DNA of 64,000 nt from Candidatus Gastranaerophilales bacterium (GCA_944325605.1 CALVAX010000004.1:1-64000); one strand, 5' to 3'; numbered from the stretch's first letter, positions 26,233-58,981 are shown. A program made the numbers and translations. Notes: generated from the letters alone by a model not told the origin.

Positions 26233-26245
26233 TTTTGTAACAAAA
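26233..26245. promoter_or_regulatory. Palindrome TTTTGTAACAAAA
   Basis: A perfect 13-bp palindrome directly after the mgtC stop and 24 bases before the sigma-28-like -35 box of the next gene. Identical to 12179-12191. Confidence 0.5.
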
Positions 26246-26268
26246 TGTAAAGAGAATTCTTAAATAAT

Positions 26269-26296
26269 TAAAGATTTCATTTCCAAATGTCGTAGA
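26269..26296 (+). promoter_or_regulatory. Sigma-28-like promoter (first ASQARLL paralog)
   Basis: TAAAGATT (26269-26276), a 12-base spacer, then GTCGTAGA (26289-26296), 43 bases before the ATG. It resembles the flagellar sigma-28 consensus TAAA-N15-GCCGATAA with one extra spacer base. The paralog at 29479 has the same boxes at the same spacing. Confidence 0.5.
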
Positions 26297-26339
26297 TACA
26301 AATATAAAAGTTACGAACGAAGAAAGGACCGCACGACAT

Positions 26340-27464
26340 ATGGGAATGTCAGCTTCACAGGCAAGATTGCTGAGTATTACGGCACGACTGACCGATAACG
26401 AAAATTCGGGTCAGGACATTTCTTATGCTAAAATTCAACTGGCAGATAAGATGGATCAGTTGAACAACGATTATTTAGCGGCTCTTGATGCGACAAAATT
26501 AACCGTTCTAACAGGTTTTAACGACTCCGAGGAAGTTTATACAGATATTTCTTACGGACTTATGACAGGCTACAACACAGTTGCGGCAGGTAAACAATAC
26601 GTGGTTACAAATAAAGACGGAAAAGTTCTTGTAACTGCCGAAATCGCAAAAGCCTACGAATCAGGCAACGGCGATTTGAACAAATTTCTGGCAGCCCTCG
26701 GGTATTCGATGGCCGATATTGATATCACTAAAAATACCGAAGGCGCTGAAGATTCAGATGAAGACAAGCTTATAACAAAACAAAAAATCCATGATGCATG
26801 GGACGTATATTTGACATCTGTAGGTCTGGAATTTGAGGACGAAGAACACGGACTTGAATTCGGATATACAACCCTTGGAGATGGATACTTCAACGGTTAT
26901 GCAACCTACACCTACAACGGTGAAACCGTACCCTTGAACTATGAAGGAACCACTGAAGAACAACGTCACAATTATGACTATGCTTTAGCTTTAACCGAAG
27001 CATATTACGGAGATTCAAACTCTGCGACAGACCTCAAAACTGCCGCAAAACCCGAAAATGACGGTTATATTCAATATTTAACAAATATTTTCCAGCGTAT
27101 TCAGCAGACAGGCTATTATACAGAGGCTGATCCGAACATGACAATCAAAGATAATACCTGGTTTGAAGAACAATTACGCAAAGGCGAATTACAGCTTGAA
27201 TACTACTCAACAAGCGAAAAGAAATTCGTTTCAACTTCTATTTCGGAAGACACAAACATTCAGGAAGTTGAAGACGAAAGAGAAATTGCAATTATTGAAC
27301 AAAAATACAAAAATGACCTTCAAAAAGTCGAACAACTGGACAACAAATACGACCTTGAACTTCAGAAACTTGATTCAGAACATAATGCGCTACAGACAGA
27401 ATACGATTCCGTCAAAAACGTAATAGAAAAGAACGTAGAAAAAACATTCAACGTATTTTCATAA
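26340..27464 (+). CDS. Unknown ASQARLL-family protein, coiled-coil ends (374 aa)
   Basis: Not recognised by name. The N-terminal MGMSASQARLLSITARLTD and about 40 further residues form a helix. The C-terminal 80 residues (EQKYKNDLQKVEQLDNKYDL, then SVKNVIEKNVEKTF) form a second long helix with heptad spacing. Between them lies an acidic, Tyr/Asp/Gly-rich globular middle. Both ends closely match the protein at 29479-31197 while the middles differ in length. This end-conserved, middle-variable plan, the lack of a signal peptide and the sigma-28-like promoter suggest a flagellar or type III exported protein. That is an inference. GAAAGGA lies 11 bases before the ATG. Two hairpins follow the gene. 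Confidence 0.85.
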   Translation: MGMSASQARLLSITARLTDNENSGQDISYAKIQLADKMDQLNNDYLAALDATKLTVLTGFNDSEEVYTDISYGLMTGYNTVAAGKQYVVTNKDGKVLVTAEIAKAYESGNGDLNKFLAALGYSMADIDITKNTEGAEDSDEDKLITKQKIHDAWDVYLTSVGLEFEDEEHGLEFGYTTLGDGYFNGYATYTYNGETVPLNYEGTTEEQRHNYDYALALTEAYYGDSNSATDLKTAAKPENDGYIQYLTNIFQRIQQTGYYTEADPNMTIKDNTWFEEQLRKGELQLEYYSTSEKKFVSTSISEDTNIQEVEDEREIAIIEQKYKNDLQKVEQLDNKYDLELQKLDSEHNALQTEYDSVKNVIEKNVEKTFNVFS

Positions 27465-27479
27465 AAAATACAAAATACC

Positions 27480-27500
27480 CCCTTGTGCCCTCACAAGGAA
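27480..27500 (+). terminator. Hairpin directly after the 374-aa gene
   Basis: CCTTGTG-ccct-CACAAGG with no T-run. Either a weak terminator or an RNA-stabilising hairpin upstream of the stronger one at 27565. Confidence 0.45.
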
Positions 27501-27564
27501 AATTTGTAATACTTTAAATCAAATAAATAACATAATATTTCCCTAATTTCGTAACTATTCCCTG

Positions 27565-27590
27565 CCGCTTTTCTGTAAAAAGCGGTTTTT
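27565..27590 (+). terminator. Rho-independent terminator before trpS
   Basis: CCGCTTTT-ctgta-AAAAGCGG followed by TTTTT ends the 374-aa gene transcript. It is followed by the trpS promoter (TGT-TATAAT at 27624-27632). Confidence 0.85.
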
Positions 27591-27623
27591 GTTATGCAAA
27601 ATTTATTCAGTTCCGGAATTTTT

Positions 27624-27632
27624 TGTTATAAT
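27624..27632 (+). promoter_or_regulatory. trpS promoter, extended -10
   Basis: TGT-TATAAT, 27 bases before the trpS start, leaving room for the ribosome site GAAAGGACG. Confidence 0.6.
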
Positions 27633-27658
27633 AAAGTGCGTAGAAAGGACGTGGAAAT

Positions 27659-28660
27659 ATGAATAAAAGAATTGTATCCGGCATGCGGCCGACAGGAAAA
27701 CTTCATCTTGGACATTATCTTGGAGTAATCCAGAACTGGGTTGAACTTCAAAAGAAATATGAAAGTTTCTTCTTTGTCGCAGACTGGCACGCCCTGACTA
27801 CAAAATACGACAAGACAGAAACCTTAAGAAATGACGTACTTGATGTTGTAATAGACTGGCTGAGCTGCGGAATTGATCCGGAAGTTTCGACAATATATGT
27901 CCAGTCGCTTGTGCCTGAGATTGCGGAGCTGAATGTATATCTTGGCATGATTACCCCGCAAAACTGGGTGGAACGTGACCCTTGCCTGAAAGATATGGCA
28001 AAAATTCTCCGCACCAAAGAAGGAGCAAATTCTCAAATAAGTTACGGGCTTATGGGGTATCCGGTATTAATGAGCGCAGATATTATGATGTTTAATTCTT
28101 CATACGTACCTGTCGGAATTGATCAGGTTGCGCATATAGAGATTACAAGAGATATCGCAAGGAGATTTAACAACATTTACAAATGCGACTTCTTCAATGA
28201 GCCTGAACCTCTTCTGAACCATTGCTCGCTAATCTGCGGACTTGACGGCAACAAAATGGGCAAATCTTTCCAGAACGATATAAAGATTTCAGACACAGCG
28301 GAAGTTACGGCTAAAAAGATTATGACGGCAATCACAGACAGAAGCCGTATGAGAAAAGACGACCCCGGACATCCGGATGAGTGCGAAGTAGCATTCAAAT
28401 ACTGGAAAATTTTCGGCGCTGAAGATGAGATTGAAACAGTTAAATGCGAATGTGAAAAAGGCTTAAGAGGATGTGCAGACTGCAAACGCCAGCTAGCTTC
28501 CGTAATCAACGAAAAAATGGCTCCTATACGGGAAAAAAGAGCTTACTATGAAGCACATCCTGAAGTTGTACATAAAATAATAAAAGAAGGTTCTGAAAAA
28601 GCAAGAGCCGAAGCGCAGAAAGTATTAAAAGAAGTCAGACGCCTTGTTAATATGTACTAA
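27659..28660 (+). CDS. trpS: Tryptophanyl-tRNA synthetase
   Basis: Charges tRNA-Trp. The class Ic signature appears as GMRPTGKLHLGHYLG (residues 8-22, HIGH variant HLGH) and GNKMGKSFQND (about 200, KMSKS variant). The tryptophan pocket region is LMGYPVLMSADIMMFN. It has 333 aa, with a Cys-rich insert near 263-278 (CECEKGLRGCADCKRQ) that looks able to bind a metal, as in some bacterial TrpRS. It is transcribed alone, between the two ASQARLL paralogs, and no terminator was seen after it. Confidence 0.96.
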   Translation: MNKRIVSGMRPTGKLHLGHYLGVIQNWVELQKKYESFFFVADWHALTTKYDKTETLRNDVLDVVIDWLSCGIDPEVSTIYVQSLVPEIAELNVYLGMITPQNWVERDPCLKDMAKILRTKEGANSQISYGLMGYPVLMSADIMMFNSSYVPVGIDQVAHIEITRDIARRFNNIYKCDFFNEPEPLLNHCSLICGLDGNKMGKSFQNDIKISDTAEVTAKKIMTAITDRSRMRKDDPGHPDECEVAFKYWKIFGAEDEIETVKCECEKGLRGCADCKRQLASVINEKMAPIREKRAYYEAHPEVVHKIIKEGSEKARAEAQKVLKEVRRLVNMY

Positions 28661-29370
28661 AATAAATCACCTCTTCACTTTTTGACCCCTCACTCGAATT
28701 TCTAAATTCGCTGCGCTCATTAAGAAATTCTACCCTCAGCCATACGGCATACAGTCTCACACGGCTCATTCTTCGCCGGTTCGAACTAGCATCCCACAAG
28801 GGGCGAGGGGAAATATTTTACGTAACGCACTTATTCACTTTGTTTTCAACTTTACGTCTTAACGTACTAACGCCTTTTTTAAAGTAAATAAGTGACGAGG
28901 TGATGAAGTGAATAAGTTCTTTTCGGCGCTCCGCGCAAATTTTAATTTAACGTAACGCACTTATTCACCTATTTACTTATTCACTTATTCACTTTGTTAA
29001 AATCGCCTTTCTCAACTCTCTTCACCATCACTTTCGCCCCATTTTGTCTTTCACTGTCATTCTGAACTTGTTTCAGAATCTCAACGTCATCCTGAGGCGC
29101 ACGAGCAGAGGGTGAAAGGCGTTAGCCGTACCCGTTTACTGCGAGTGCGAAAAGCCGAAGGATCTTCTGGAAACACAAAAGGATTCTTCGGTCGTTTCAC
29201 TCCCTCAGAATGACATGACTTAGACAAAATGGGGCGCTGTCTTAACGTCCTAACGTCTTTTATTCTAAAACCTCTTAGTGCCCTAGTATCTTTTTCCGAA
29301 ACAAACCTTTCAACCATTCCACCGTTCAACCATTCAACTTCCCTCACCCTTCACCTTTCTTATGTAAACA

Positions 29371-29381
29371 TTTGTTACAAA
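29371..29381. promoter_or_regulatory. TTTGTTACAAA motif
   Basis: Copy of the recurrent TTTTGTAACAAAA palindrome (reverse orientation, 11 bp), 15 bases before the -35 box of the second ASQARLL paralog. Confidence 0.45.
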
Positions 29382-29396
29382 TCTATCATCATATTT

Positions 29397-29424
29397 TAAA
29401 GATTGAAAGCTAAAATGCCGTCAT
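29397..29424 (+). promoter_or_regulatory. Sigma-28-like promoter (second ASQARLL paralog)
   Basis: TAAAGATT (29397-29404), 12 bases, GCCGTCAT (29417-29424), 54 bases before the ATG. The TAAAGATT box is identical to that at 26269 and the spacing is the same. Confidence 0.55.
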
Positions 29425-29478
29425 ACTACATGAATAATCAGGAAATTGTTACTAACTCGAAAGGAAACACGTAAGACA

Positions 29479-31197
29479 ATGGGATTAGCGGCATCACAAG
29501 CAAGATTATTAACAATCACGGCCAGAAAGTCTGACTGTGAATATAAAAGCATGCTGCTTTCACACCAGAAAATAGCATTGTCACGTGATATGAGCAGGCT
29601 TTCAGCAGAATATGATGATGCAATTGCTCAGACAAAACTGGTTTACGATTATTACGGCAACAGCGAAGCAACGCCTTTGACTTATAACCTGATGATGACA
29701 CCGTCAGCGATGAATAATTACACTCCGCTTCTGGTGACTGACAATTCAGGCAGAGTTGTGCTGGATTCACGGCTTGCAAAAGCCGCAAGGGATGCGGGTA
29801 TTCCGCAGGAAGGCCTTGACGGTCTGCCGTCAAGCGATTTGCGTAATGCGTTTATTGATTCTCTTGCTTCGACAGGTTATATCAGTCAGAATACCGCTGA
29901 CAATATTAAAAAGACATCTTACAACCAGACAGCAGGTGTTGGATCTACCGATCTTATTAATATTAATACAACTGAATGTAATCTGACAGAATTGACAGAG
30001 ATGCTGACAACACAATATTTTGATTTCGGTGACGTTATCGGATTCAATAACGAGTTTGTGGATGATGTATACCTTAAAAAACGTGAAAATAATACAAACA
30101 CACAAGCCGGGAATGAGATAACTTTTGCGGAGCTCTTGAACGGTGATTATATCTTGATGGCAGAAACCAAGGATGATGGTCGTGATAACTTAAGTTTTAA
30201 CAACTTAACTGTTGATGGCGGTGTAACAGACGTTCTTTGCGGATTAAGCCTATGGGAAACAATGTTCCAGACATTTGAGGGACTTCTTGATACCGGAGAT
30301 GAATATACACAGGCCGCATTGGCTTATGCAAGACGTATGATTAGTGATAAGGTCACTAACCTCGGTGCCGGAATGGATTCAGGTAAAGCTTACGGTTATA
30401 GTGGCGATGGTACAGGTACTGTTGGTACAGAAGCAGGTCGAGATTATCATGAAGATGGTAAAAATATTCACGACAACTTCGGTGATTGGAGATATGTTGG
30501 TGAAAGTTACGACAGTGAAGTAAGAAATGCTGCAAATGATAGTATCTCAGCTGATGTCATAGGTTTGAATGGTATTTATAACCAGGACTGCACAGGTGGT
30601 GATAAAGATGATGACTCTTGTATGTCAATGGCTACCATCAACATTTCATCTATGTTCAAGGCATACCTGACATACTTTGCTCAGTACATGGAAGGTATTG
30701 ATAGTTCAATTTATGAAGTTAACAATACAAAAACAAATTCAAACCTGATTGATGATATGTTTACATTCACAGTTGTGACTGATGTTGATACATCAGGCGA
30801 CAACCTTTTGATTGCAGCATTCTACGATACATTGTTCAACCAGATTTGTACTAAAGGCTGGACTGAAAATGACAAGGTTAACGACCAGGATTATATGCAG
30901 GAATCCCTCAAAAACGGCAATATGTATATTTCAAGCCTTGCTGATGACGGCTACTATTATCAGGGCAACTATGCAACTCACAACTACATCAAAGAAATTA
31001 CCGATGAAGAAGCTATTGCTCAGGCTGAAGCTAAATACAACCGCGAAAAAGAAAAACTTAACTACAAAGAAAATATCCTCGATATGAAGATGAAAAATCT
31101 TGATACAGAAATTTCATCACTCACAACCGAATATGACACAATCAAATCAGTTATATCCAAAAACATTGAAAAAGGCTTCAAGCGTTACGAAGCATAG
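29479..31197 (+). CDS. Unknown ASQARLL-family protein, larger paralog (572 aa)
   Basis: Paralog of 26340-27464. The shared N-terminus is MGLAASQARLLTITARKSD. A matching middle piece is LLVTDNSGRVVLDSRLAKA (compare YVVTNKDGKVLVTAEIAKA). The C-terminal helix is AEAKYNREKEKLNYKENILD followed by EYDTIKSVISKNIEKGF. An Asp/Gly/Asn-rich central domain of about 350 residues is specific to this copy. There is no signal peptide. The open frame begins at 29446, but AAAGGAAA before the ATG at 29479 and alignment with the paralog fix the start there. A perfect terminator follows. Export through the flagellar-type system is inferred, not shown. Confidence 0.87.
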   Translation: MGLAASQARLLTITARKSDCEYKSMLLSHQKIALSRDMSRLSAEYDDAIAQTKLVYDYYGNSEATPLTYNLMMTPSAMNNYTPLLVTDNSGRVVLDSRLAKAARDAGIPQEGLDGLPSSDLRNAFIDSLASTGYISQNTADNIKKTSYNQTAGVGSTDLININTTECNLTELTEMLTTQYFDFGDVIGFNNEFVDDVYLKKRENNTNTQAGNEITFAELLNGDYILMAETKDDGRDNLSFNNLTVDGGVTDVLCGLSLWETMFQTFEGLLDTGDEYTQAALAYARRMISDKVTNLGAGMDSGKAYGYSGDGTGTVGTEAGRDYHEDGKNIHDNFGDWRYVGESYDSEVRNAANDSISADVIGLNGIYNQDCTGGDKDDDSCMSMATINISSMFKAYLTYFAQYMEGIDSSIYEVNNTKTNSNLIDDMFTFTVVTDVDTSGDNLLIAAFYDTLFNQICTKGWTENDKVNDQDYMQESLKNGNMYISSLADDGYYYQGNYATHNYIKEITDEEAIAQAEAKYNREKEKLNYKENILDMKMKNLDTEISSLTTEYDTIKSVISKNIEKGFKRYEA

Positions 31198-55263: not shown

Positions 55264-56481
55264 ATGGAAAATATATTACAGGCACTGGAACATACCAAAA
55301 TTCCGGTCAGCGACAATTTATATGAGGAATACGACTGGTTTAAGAAAGTCTTTCCAATTGCTGCACAAAAGTCCAGCGACGGATTTTTCCTGCCCGGTTT
55401 CAGATTTGAACTTGTCGCTGTCAGCAAAAATATTAACATGCTGATGACTAAAGAGCCCTACTTTGTCACAAAAATCAGAATTGACAAACTTTATGATATG
55501 TTTTTCAGAATTTCGGCTAAAACAGTCGGCATGCTTCTTGAAAAAGCCCTCGGCCGTGCAAACAGAACTTTCAATATTAACAAAATGACAGATTTGGAAG
55601 GAGAAATTCTCACTGCGTTTAATGATTACATGTTTAGAATTATGGCTAAATTCCTGACCCCTACCCCTGTTGTAAATATTAAACGTACAAACTTTGACAT
55701 GATTCATCTGACATTTATTGTCAAAAACAAAGACGACGGTGAAGCCGGAAAATTTATTATCTCAATTCCCTCGGTCAGACTGGAAGCAAACAAGGTTGTT
55801 TCCAAAGAAGACAAGTTTGAATATTCAGACTTTTACCAGTGCCCGATAAAAGCAAAAATTCAAATCGGCTCAACACGGTTCACCGTAAAAGAAATGAAAG
55901 AGCTTGCGAAAGAAGACATTATTCTTCTTGAAAACAGCAGGCTTGATATGATGAAATTTATATTAAAAGATTACGAGAAAGATTTTAACATCAACCCGAA
56001 TATGGGACTTGAACATCCCCTTGACGGAGACGGAGGATACAAAATGGACGAAAATACCGAAAATACTAATTTATGGGACAGTATCGAAGTTGACATGTAT
56101 GCCGAATTCGATCCCGTAAAAATTACTCTCGGCAATTTGAAGAAAATAGAAGAAGGGCTTGTTGTAGATATTGCAGCTCTTTACGACAATAAAGTGACCC
56201 TGCGTGTTGAAAACAAAGTTATAGGCCACGGTGAACTTGTAATAATAAACGACAGGTATGGCGTAAAAATTTCAGATATCGTAGAAAAAGGGCAGATGGA
56301 AGTCGAAGATATGCAATCCGCAGCACCTCAGCCAAATCCTGTTCAACAGGCACAGCCTCAAATGCAGCAGGCGCCTCAGCAGGACGCACCGCCGGAACCG
56401 ATGCCGGCTCCAGAACCTCAGCCCGGTGAAGAAGAAGAATTCGACTACAGCGACTTTGAGCTTGAAGACGAAGATATCTAA
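55264..56481 (+). CDS. SpoA-domain C-ring protein (FliM/FliN/SctQ-like)
   Basis: Probably part of the cytoplasmic ring of a flagellar or type III secretion machine. The clear domain is a C-terminal SpoA fold (ITLGNLKKIEEGLVVDIAAL and VIGHGELVIINDRYGVKISD, about 285-345). A second possible SpoA lies at about 195-245 (CPIKAKIQIGSTRFTVKEMK...IILLENS). The first 190 residues are not clearly FliM-like. A Gln/Pro-rich tail and an acidic end (EEEEFDYSDFELEDED) follow. Two SpoA domains in one chain recall SctQ/YscQ. It heads fliO-fliP-fliQ-fliR. AAAGGGA lies 15 bases before the ATG, rather far. Confidence 0.8.
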   Translation: MENILQALEHTKIPVSDNLYEEYDWFKKVFPIAAQKSSDGFFLPGFRFELVAVSKNINMLMTKEPYFVTKIRIDKLYDMFFRISAKTVGMLLEKALGRANRTFNINKMTDLEGEILTAFNDYMFRIMAKFLTPTPVVNIKRTNFDMIHLTFIVKNKDDGEAGKFIISIPSVRLEANKVVSKEDKFEYSDFYQCPIKAKIQIGSTRFTVKEMKELAKEDIILLENSRLDMMKFILKDYEKDFNINPNMGLEHPLDGDGGYKMDENTENTNLWDSIEVDMYAEFDPVKITLGNLKKIEEGLVVDIAALYDNKVTLRVENKVIGHGELVIINDRYGVKISDIVEKGQMEVEDMQSAAPQPNPVQQAQPQMQQAPQQDAPPEPMPAPEPQPGEEEEFDYSDFELEDEDI

Positions 56482-56514: not shown

Positions 56515-57036
56515 ATGGGAAGTTACATTATGAATTTTGCGGTATATACAATGGCAATGTGCGGACTGATATTCTTCGCATTGTTTGTATATAAAAAATT
56601 CGCAACAGGAAGTTTCACTTCAAAAAATTCACAATTTCTGAACGTTGAAGACACACTCTCAATCGGGCCTAGAAAAGTCCTTTATGTAATAAGAGCCGGC
56701 AGAGAGAAGTTTCTTGTGGCATCAGATGCAGACAAAACAACCCTTATTTCAAAACTGGAAAACAACGAAACTATTCACACAGCTTCCGGATTTGAAAGAG
56801 AGCTGCAAGCTGCAGCAAAATCTACATATACCCCGCAAAATTATGAACGTCGTTCCGTGAACATTCAATCTCCCAAACCGCAGCAAAAACAAAAGGTTTC
56901 TGCTCCAGCACAGCCGGACAGAACAGTTTTTGCAGGAATTGACGAACTTCCGGATATCAAAGCACTTTCCAAAAACAAAAAAACAAACAACAATGTGCTT
57001 AAAAGTATGGTAAATAAAGTCAAAGTGAAGGAATAA
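56515..57036 (+). CDS. fliO: FliO-like flagellar biosynthesis protein
   Basis: One membrane helix (about residues 4-24) is followed by the FliO-type beta domain (LNVEDTLSIGPRKVLYVIRA, then EKFLVASDADKTTLISKLE). A basic Gln/Lys/Pro-rich tail to 173 aa follows. The position directly before fliP supports the assignment, since sequence alone is weak in this family. FliO assists FliP assembly in flagella and is normally absent from non-flagellar type III systems, which favours a flagellar identity. AAAGGATAAATT precedes the ATG. Confidence 0.78.
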   Translation: MGSYIMNFAVYTMAMCGLIFFALFVYKKFATGSFTSKNSQFLNVEDTLSIGPRKVLYVIRAGREKFLVASDADKTTLISKLENNETIHTASGFERELQAAAKSTYTPQNYERRSVNIQSPKPQQKQKVSAPAQPDRTVFAGIDELPDIKALSKNKKTNNNVLKSMVNKVKVKE

Positions 57037-57037
57037 T

Positions 57038-57679
57038 ATGGATTCTGTAATAAAAGATATAAATCCCGTAATACAAATGCTGATTGTAATGACACTGTTC
57101 TCATTGCTGCCGTTTGTATTTTGCTGTATGACAAGTTTTTTAAGATTTGTCGTAGTATTTTCTATGCTAAAAACAGCAATGGGCACCCAGCAGGTTCCGC
57201 CGTCAATCGTAATCATCGGGTTATCAATAATTTTGACATTTTTTACAATGGGTTCAACATTCCAGAAAATGTACGATATGGGAAGCGTTCCCTATCAGCA
57301 GAACCATAATATTATTCAGGCCGTAAATGAAGGCTCAAAACCGTTAAAAGAATTTATGATGAAGCAGACAAGAGAAAGCGATCTGGCATTTTTTGTGGAA
57401 CTTTCCCAAAAAACACCGCCAAAAACTCCTGAAGAAATAACTATCTGGCAGGTGGCGCCGGCTTATATCATAAGTGAACTTAAAACGGCTTTTGAAATCG
57501 GGTTTATCATATTTGTACCTTTCATTGTGTTAGACCTTGTTGTTGCAAACATTCTTCTGGCACTAGGTATGTTTATGTTATCACCAACAATTATTTCACT
57601 GCCGTTCAAACTCTTGATATTTATTGCTGTTGACGGCTGGGCGTTAATTGTACAGGGGCTTGTCACAAGTTACAACTAA
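57038..57679 (+). CDS. fliP: Type III export pore protein FliP/SctR
   Basis: Core of the export gate. SFLRFVVVFSMLKTAMGTQQVPP (two blocks, about 33-55), the central LKEFMMKQTRESDLAFF, and PAYIISELKTAFEIGFIIFVPF with LPFKLLIFIAVDGWALIVQG at the end are hallmarks. 213 aa. There is no cleavable signal peptide, unlike many flagellar FliP proteins (about 245 aa), which makes it similar in size to SctR. It starts 1 base after fliO. Confidence 0.94.
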   Translation: MDSVIKDINPVIQMLIVMTLFSLLPFVFCCMTSFLRFVVVFSMLKTAMGTQQVPPSIVIIGLSIILTFFTMGSTFQKMYDMGSVPYQQNHNIIQAVNEGSKPLKEFMMKQTRESDLAFFVELSQKTPPKTPEEITIWQVAPAYIISELKTAFEIGFIIFVPFIVLDLVVANILLALGMFMLSPTIISLPFKLLIFIAVDGWALIVQGLVTSYN

Positions 57680-57698: not shown

Positions 57699-58190
57699 AT
57701 GATAGAAATTTTAGCGGAATATTTGTCAAAGGGTTTTATCGTAATGCTTGCAATTTCAATGCCATGCGTACTTGTGGCTGCGGGTATCGGGCTTGTAGTC
57801 GGTATTTTGCAGGCTGTTACGCAGGTTCAGGAGCAGACAATCGCTGCCGCACCTAAAATTCTCGGGGTATTCCTGATTATTATTGTCGGCGGTTTTGGAT
57901 TTATCAGAATGCTGACAAATCTTTTTTACGAAGGGATGGCTCTTGCGTTCAACGGTGTAACTAAAAATGATAATTATGCGCTTTCAAGTGACTACTACAA
58001 ATACACTTCTCCTTTTAAAGGAGAAATGCAGGACAGATTCAAAGACAGCACAAATATCGACTACATTATGCGTCATCCTGGCAACATTCCGTTTATCAAC
58101 AGTCAGGAACGGCTGAAAGACACCCCTGCTAACGGTATGCCAAGACCTACACCGGACTTTAACGAAACAAAAACTATTCTCGGGAGATAA
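57699..58190 (+). CDS. fliQ: Export gate protein FliQ/SctS with a long C-terminal extension
   Basis: The first 90 residues are a normal FliQ: helix, PCVLVAAGIGLVVGILQAVT, QVQEQTIAAAPKILGVFLII and a second helix. Family members usually end there (about 89 aa). Here a polar tail of about 70 residues follows (SSDYYKYTSPFKGEMQDRFK, then DYIMRHPGNIPFINSQERLK), with no membrane segment. It is in frame with no sign of fusion to a neighbour. The tail is probably cytoplasmic or at the pore base, with role unknown. Confidence 0.9.
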   Translation: MIEILAEYLSKGFIVMLAISMPCVLVAAGIGLVVGILQAVTQVQEQTIAAAPKILGVFLIIIVGGFGFIRMLTNLFYEGMALAFNGVTKNDNYALSSDYYKYTSPFKGEMQDRFKDSTNIDYIMRHPGNIPFINSQERLKDTPANGMPRPTPDFNETKTILGR

Positions 58191-58198
58191 CGGATTAG

Positions 58199-58981
58199 AT
58201 GGATACTATTTACATTGAATTAATGAAAATGTTTCCACACCTGAACGCCGCTCTTGCAACAGGGATTTATATTTTTGCACGGTTAATCGGATTTTTCCGC
58301 TTTGCGCCGGTTTTCAACAAAAAAGAAATCCCCGGAATGGTTAAAATATGCCTTGCACTGCTTTTCACTTTTATAGTCGGCCCGTTTTTAAGGCCCGATA
58401 CGCTTGCCGGCACAACGGATTCTTTTATTTTATCTATTCTTTTGAACTTTGCAGTCGGCGCAATGATAGGGTATCTTGCACAATTGATTTTGATTGCGGT
58501 TGACGCAGGGGCTGATATGATAAACATGCAGATGGGGCTTTCATCCGCAATGGTTCTTGACCCGACAACATCAAGCCAGGTATCTATTTTAACAAGAATA
58601 ATGTCGCTTTTAGGGGTTTTAATCTTCATCCACATCGGCGGAATTTACTGGCTGTTAAGAGCTTTTATGAGAAGTTTTGAAATTTTTCCGCTTTTTGCAA
58701 CGAGCGTTCCGCTGAAAGAACTTGTCAATATGGATTATCTTGTAAAACTGAGTTCCAATGTATTGTTTATGGGGCTGCAAATTGCATCTCCGATTCTTCT
58801 GGCAACACTCGGACAGGATATTATTCTCGGCGTTATTTCAAAAACAGCCCCGCAGGTAAACGTTTTCCAGTTAAGCTTTCTGTTTAAGCCGGTTTTTGGA
58901 GCTGCAATTATGGTATGGATTTTGCCGATGCTTCTGGATGTAATTTCCGATTACTTCTTAACTTACGCAAATATATTTTAA
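58199..58981 (+). CDS. fliR: Export gate protein FliR/SctT
   Basis: Completes the FliP5-FliQ4-FliR1 gate. FARLIGFFRFAPVFNKKEIP (about 26), VGAMIGYLAQLILIAVDAGADMINMQMGLS (about 91-120), LDPTTSSQVSILTRIMSLLG and the C-terminal FLFKPVFGAAIMVWILPMLLD are typical. 260 aa. Last gene of the cluster: no flhB or flhA follows, so those genes lie elsewhere. Confidence 0.94.
   Translation: MDTIYIELMKMFPHLNAALATGIYIFARLIGFFRFAPVFNKKEIPGMVKICLALLFTFIVGPFLRPDTLAGTTDSFILSILLNFAVGAMIGYLAQLILIAVDAGADMINMQMGLSSAMVLDPTTSSQVSILTRIMSLLGVLIFIHIGGIYWLLRAFMRSFEIFPLFATSVPLKELVNMDYLVKLSSNVLFMGLQIASPILLATLGQDIILGVISKTAPQVNVFQLSFLFKPVFGAAIMVWILPMLLDVISDYFLTYANIF

Follow-up and report, generated by a model that had tools for sequence, protein, structure and literature searches.

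Two genes on the plus strand of a 64,000-nucleotide stretch of DNA from a Candidatus Gastranaerophilales bacterium (GCA_944325605.1 CALVAX010000004.1:1-64000, hereafter the window, to which coordinates given without a contig or locus refer) encode proteins, W1 and W2, that probably belong to a group of at least 14 late substrates for a second type III apparatus of the flagellar type, serving as subunits of a filament or other surface structure. Both open reading frames lie where the initial annotation had placed them, W1 at 26340..27464 (374 amino acids) and W2 at 29479..31197 (572 amino acids, taking the ATG at 29479 as the start and passing over an upstream TTG), and both have the common ends described there, i.e. 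an N-terminus reading MG(M/L)(S/A)ASQARLL(S/T)ITAR and a conserved C-terminal helix reading EYD-x-(V/I)-K-x-VI-x-KN-x-EK-x-F. We refer to proteins with these ends as the ASQAR family. The family, its promoters, the sigma factor, the apparatus gene set, the co-occurrence across genomes, a short form of the protein, mosaic genes and the predicted helices were all computed here.

Searching the whole source genome (G000; 2.15 Mb) with W1 gave 27 matches, corresponding to 14 genes on 11 contigs. The search for more MG-x-x-ASQARLL N-termini that the initial annotation had called for thus turned its two paralogs into a family of at least 14; the shared ends with differing middles were borne out, while the notion of a mere pair was not. 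When the 14 paralogs were aligned, the N and C ends were conserved and the middle was not, with all 13 invariant columns falling within the ends. Two main subgroups were seen, namely ASQARLLSIT(A/S)R and ASQARFLGLTARKTN. One more copy is probably cut by the end of contig C8, where a promoter matches that of the C15 gene exactly. The named relatives with the family are Candidatus Gastranaerophilales and Melainabacteria genomes, nearly all of them gut-derived.

The two genes in the window have matching sigma-28-like promoters on the plus strand with a gap of exactly 12 bases, TAAAGATT-N12-GTCGTAGA for W1 (26269..26296, boxes at 26269-26276 and 26289-26296) and TAAAGATT-N12-GCCGTCAT for W2 (29397..29424, boxes at 29397-29404 and 29417-29424). 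Upstream of each, on the same strand, lies a TTTGT(A/T)ACAAA motif at about 26233..26250 (TTTTGTAACAAAATGTAA) and 29363..29381 (TGTAAACATTTGTTACAAA), respectively, a possible regulator site. This arrangement, first pointed out in the initial annotation, was verified for both genes and exceeds chance in controls. Using a promoter score built on TAAAGTTT and GCCGATAA boxes with varied spacing, the 14 paralogs had a mean of 10.27 at spacing 12, versus 7.85 in 183 controls (p 3e-7); this spacing was a sharp peak, every other one being worse. Of 76 family genes in the named relatives, 70% scored at least 10 at spacing 12, as opposed to 0.6% of 533 controls (p 4e-43), both p values being descriptive only, since related genes are not independent. 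The best-scoring control (L115) was actually a family gene with a wrong start call. In these relatives the consensus is TAAAGTTT-N12-GCCG(A/T)TAA, the median distance between the -35 box and the start codon is 70 bp (interquartile range 67-75), and TGTAAC repeats occur upstream at 0.91 per family gene versus 0.14 per control. Genome-wide the pattern showed no excess over its reversed control (45 versus 65 sites), and its significance is therefore confined to the position before family genes. The Escherichia coli sigma-28 consensus has a spacing of 11 between the 8-mers, compared with 12 in this family.

The genome also encodes the sigma factor itself, FliA (G000:C2:247207-247869), at 244 bits against a cut-off of 189.6, so the absence of a sigma-28 gene, which would have spoken against the proposal, does not apply. 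Both elements of a sigma-28 late-gene regulon, the FliA gene and TAAA / GCCGATAA promoters of fixed spacing, are accordingly present. Sigma-28-like promoters were also seen about 30-90 bp before unrelated genes, namely L150/L151 and L148 on C1, L156/L157 on C2, L158 and L160 on C3, and L164 on C4; among the products behind such further promoters are MFNSVNNPFNRAISSS..., MEISGVSAGAYTSAAA... and MTTSISAVNAGSSAAG..., to which no function is assigned. These genes are candidates for more substrates or regulators.

The export gate noted in the window consists of FliO (56515..57036), FliP (57038..57679), FliQ (57699..58190) and FliR (58199..58981), all on the plus strand and preceded by a FliN-like C-ring protein with two FliMN_C stretches (55264..56481, plus strand). 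Elsewhere in the genome, contig C17 has FliE, FliF, FliH and FlhA in a single operon, C10 has FlhB together with FliJ-like, FliK-like and FlgE/F/G-like proteins, and C27 has FlgB, FlgC and two FlgF/G-like rod proteins. The matches to FliK and FliJ fall under the Pfam cut-offs, and the FlgE-like protein is short. With FlhA, FlhB, FliP, FliQ, FliR and rod proteins all present, the set of flagellar-type genes for export, rod and hook-like parts is, judging by sequence, near-complete. A search for Flagellin_N (PF00669) in this genome gave zero matches, and the apparatus is therefore not a motility flagellum.

Some neighboring and related genes deserve mention. A conserved protein of 338-358 amino acids with zero Pfam matches is encoded between FliF and FliH (L054:16886-17947, on G000:C17; L222:13233-14249), in the position expected for a FliG-like protein. 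Its N-terminal part resembles that of a soluble FlhA-like protein on C8 (L226:2707-4494, 595 amino acids), which, like another on C9 (L225:2274-3749, 491 amino acids), matches the cytoplasmic part of FlhA only. The FHIPEP spans covered are about 258-655 and 321-653, respectively, the membrane part being missing. The C8 gene adjoins two response-regulator genes, and similar proteins are found in G161 and G088. These soluble proteins might act as substrate-docking platforms.

In a survey of 194 genomes of the class, the ASQAR family occurred in 116, FHIPEP (FlhA-family) matches and above-cut-off FliA in 140 each, and flagellin in 50. All 116 ASQAR-bearing genomes had FHIPEP matches, only partial ones in the case of G088, although such counts are structured by phylogeny and hence not independent; homologs in genomes without flagellar or type III genes, which the initial annotation had named as a refutation, were thus not encountered. 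Family f3 had neither FlhA nor ASQAR. The FlhA scores split into two bands, and these were separated with a support of 100/100 in a tree of 15 FlhA proteins. The FlhA of the source genome clusters with its counterparts from other gut genomes and with the second FlhA of the non-gut family f4, whose members hold a flagellar FlhA too. This second clade was found in seven of the eight genomes examined individually, and its FlhA is intact in nearly all sampled gut genomes. The second clade is ancient, and flagellated relatives hold it beside the flagellar one, while in the source genome the second apparatus is the only such apparatus found. The initial interpretation needs changing on this point, as the genome lacks flagellin and the linked apparatus is a second flagellar-type system with a distinct FlhA.

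A much shorter form of the protein was also found. The ASQAR matches of the non-gut families f4, f9 and f10 fall in open frames some 110-133 amino acids long; here the C-end model (474-526) starts straight after the N-end model (positions 1-43), and the middle is missing. All 14 extracted non-gut mini proteins are exactly 109 amino acids long, and the form occurs in several copies. The source genome (C22, L030:7580-7906) and most of the gut family have a 108-residue version. The initial description thus has to be widened to this mini form and a far larger family. A mini-form profile found matches in 131 of 292 genomes drawn from the phylum; those among the matches listed all belong to f1 or f2, and among the listed genomes from outside the class there were zero matches. 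In seven genomes (G004, G022, G039, G086, G098, G116 and G118) the 108-residue gene lies about 8.5-10 kb, in contig coordinates, from the second FlhA, and two of these regions, read whole, hold an ASQAR gene, a 272-residue protein and the mini gene near FliE-FliF-FliH-FlhA. Gene order is kept at L030:4655-7906 (G000:C22), L222:3586-6203 and L223:11371-14607, i.e. an ASQAR gene, a 272-residue protein, a 90-residue protein (seen in C22 and G004) and a mini protein of 108-110 residues. Neither the 272- nor the 90-residue protein has a Pfam match, and the latter could be a putative chaperone. A perfect TAAAGTTT-N12-GCCGATAA match stands upstream of the 90- and 108-residue genes on C22, while this promoter was not found before the structural operons tested, which by analogy would suggest the early/late logic of flagella. 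In the non-gut families, only some mini genes are preceded by the promoter, at spacing 11 or 12. Most simply, the hairpin would be the ancestral form, into which the gut lineage inserted the large middles; the opposite course, a loss of middles giving bare hairpins, is possible.

Sequence exchange appears to have shaped the large paralogs. C8a, C5a and C10, on different contigs, are 95-100% identical over the last ~450-600 nt and well conserved over the first 350 nt, yet their middles align at noise level only. C5b and C24 show the same pattern, and it recurs in a second species, where a divergent pair of genes shares one contig (L114). Near-identical ends with unrelated middles imply recombination between dispersed paralogs and suggest either that gene conversion has acted on the ends or that middles have been exchanged. 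Assembly artefacts are possible for copies at contig ends of this draft genome, but C8a, C5a and C5b are internal to their contigs and L114 is independent, so that this caveat spares them. In the window, the intergenic region 28680-29350 contains dense short degenerate repeats of the CTTATTCACTTTGTT / AACGTAACGCAC and CCTAACGTC types, which recur 3' of C10, C8a and C5a. W2 orthologues in close relatives (L059-L064, L067) occur on either strand and at varying distance downstream of W1, showing that the W1-W2 interval is often rearranged.

Structure prediction for both proteins, as proposed in the initial annotation, gave end helices that pair around the middle, as in flagellar axial proteins, a likeness of architecture and not of homology. 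For W1, AlphaFold2 with 33 sequences (predicted local distance difference test, pLDDT, 87; predicted template modeling score 0.70) placed a mixed alpha/beta middle domain between two long, paired helices, one at the N end (residues 2-49, nt 26343-26486) and one at the C end (residues 313-373, nt 27276-27458). The low-confidence W2 model (pLDDT 63.6) has the same end helices, at residues 3-49 (nt 29485-29625) and 510-571 (nt 31006-31191). Foldseek gave zero matches to the W1 model at E <0.001, and neither Foldseek nor VIA-align placed an enzyme fold among the structure matches, contrary to what an intracellular enzyme family would predict. No Pfam or NCBIfam family was matched above cut-off by either protein; in Pfam, W1 had no family match at all and W2 none to flagellin, and a PDB sequence search gave zero matches for W2. 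The view that these are not flagellin or hook proteins by any visible motif was upheld by negative profile and Pfam comparisons with flagellin and FlgE-like proteins. Needle families were absent from the Pfam matches of 15 mini proteins, and needle proteins from the PDB sequence matches. In sequence databases the 109-residue profile retrieved generic coiled coils only, and we judged the many haemagglutinin chains at E about 0.1 to be chance.

In the mechanism that we propose, early genes would build the machine (FliE-FliF-FliH-FlhA, FlhB, FliOPQR, the FliN-like protein, FlgB/C, two FlgF/G-like proteins, a short FlgE-like protein, and the FliJ-like and FliK-like proteins), after which FliA would activate the ASQAR genes via the TAAAGTTT-N12-GCCG(A/T)TAA promoters. 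Their products would leave through the export channel, and the two end helices would then pair into a coiled-coil hairpin packing into a filament or surface structure, like flagellin D0/D1, with the variable middle facing outside. The ancestral subunit was probably a bare hairpin of 108-109 residues, to which the gut lineage would have added large middles, multiplying the genes and swapping middles between recombination-homogenised ends. Export by the second apparatus is likely, polymerisation is given a slightly better than even chance, and display of the middle at the cell surface is presumed. Several observations weigh against this proposal. G088 has the family and FlhB with partial FlhA matches only, the flagellar-type families f5-f7 have FlhA without an ASQAR match, and the C22 family gene has no promoter. 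VIA-align ranks flagellar filament chains (Z about 9) and Smc-type coiled coils (Z 10-11) alike, for which reason no fold is claimed, and the filament matches of a helical hairpin may reflect a common arrangement only. When the mini form was compared, profile against profile, with flagellin, FliE, FlgB, FlgC, FlgF/G, FlgE-like proteins and FliJ, there were zero matches.

The same apparatus might instead export proteins that do not polymerise, i.e. effectors or adhesins with a shared export or chaperone-binding N helix, a C helix and middles with activities of their own. This would suit the many paralogs with unrelated middles, as well as the identical promoter before unrelated genes of unassigned function, which makes the sigma-28 regulon broader than a single polymer. 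We nevertheless find it rather unlikely, as the C end is conserved too and not the N end alone, and in the non-gut families the protein is a bare hairpin, always 109 residues long and present in several copies, which leaves no space for an effector domain. That the proteins are cytoplasmic coiled-coil scaffolds or chaperone-like factors, merely co-regulated by sigma-28, is highly improbable. Their structural neighbors do include cytosolic coiled-coil proteins, and in flagellated bacteria sigma-28 drives the cytoplasmic chemotaxis genes too, but 14 diverging paralogs with fast-changing middles and recombining ends resemble exposed proteins, and the family is limited to FlhA-bearing genomes. Hardly credible, finally, is that the whole set is a decaying flagellum, even though the incomplete sets of this group have been interpreted as flagellum loss or continuing genome reduction (PMC4040986, PMC3787301): the retained FlhA forms a clade separate from the flagellar one, flagellated relatives hold both types, the second type is intact in nearly all sampled gut genomes, FliA is kept, and different species have the promoter motif conserved in front of their family genes. 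The initial suggestion of export substrates, possibly surface filament or cap-like proteins, is therefore partly supported, with export as an inference, in light of the FlhA co-occurrence, the FliA gene and the lack of enzyme folds, but has to be revised to a flagellin-less second system and a larger family.

If the reading as late substrates of a second apparatus is true, the 'incomplete flagella' of common gut Gastranaerophilales are a conserved machine with a large substrate family of its own and not relics, and likely variable surface proteins can be named for a flagellin-less lineage of the human and animal gut. It also provides an evolutionary series that starts with a 109-residue hairpin and leads to large variable proteins, whereby the question of how type III apparatuses gain new filaments becomes testable. 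More tentatively, and short of calling it probable, we suggest a third kind of type III-built appendage, an ASQAR hairpin filament on a second, ancient flagellar-type basal body in non-photosynthetic cyanobacterial relatives, which became a recombining variable surface structure in the gut lineage. In the open-access literature we found no description of the second type III apparatus or the ASQAR family, a novelty that is provisional because subscription papers and preprints lay outside the search. A termite-gut relative and Vampirovibrio are described as flagellated (PMC5877343, PMC4451040), and the environmental genome ACD20 is listed with two flhA genes in the work on gut Melainabacteria (PMC3787301, PMC4040986).

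Among known systems, the incomplete flagellar sets of gut Melainabacteria (Di Rienzi et al. 2013, PMC3787301; Soo et al. 2014, PMC4040986) come from the same genome group and share many of the same genes. As far as the accessible text of these papers goes, they differ in treating the sets as incomplete or lost flagella, without naming a second apparatus or the ASQAR family. Flagellin and the axial proteins (FliC, FlgK, FlgL, FliD) are like the ASQAR proteins in having paired long end helices, a variable middle, a sigma-28-type promoter, multiple paralogs and a flagellar-type export gate. In contrast to these, the ASQAR helices are shorter, the genome has no Flagellin_N, there is no profile similarity to the flagellins of the class, and the FlhA is of the other clade. 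The needle and filament subunits of injectisomes (SctF, EspA) resemble the mini form as small helical hairpins (109 amino acids here) and possible polymer units; unlike in injectisomes, there is no Pfam needle match, and the genes of the machine are of the flagellar type (rod, FlgE-like and sigma-28) and not those of an injectisome. Flagellin-less flagellar basal bodies used for export have been reported, for instance in the aphid symbiont Buchnera. These likewise retain flagellar basal body genes without flagellin, whereas the system described here is a second, phylogenetically distinct one that has a sigma-28 regulon and a substrate family of its own.

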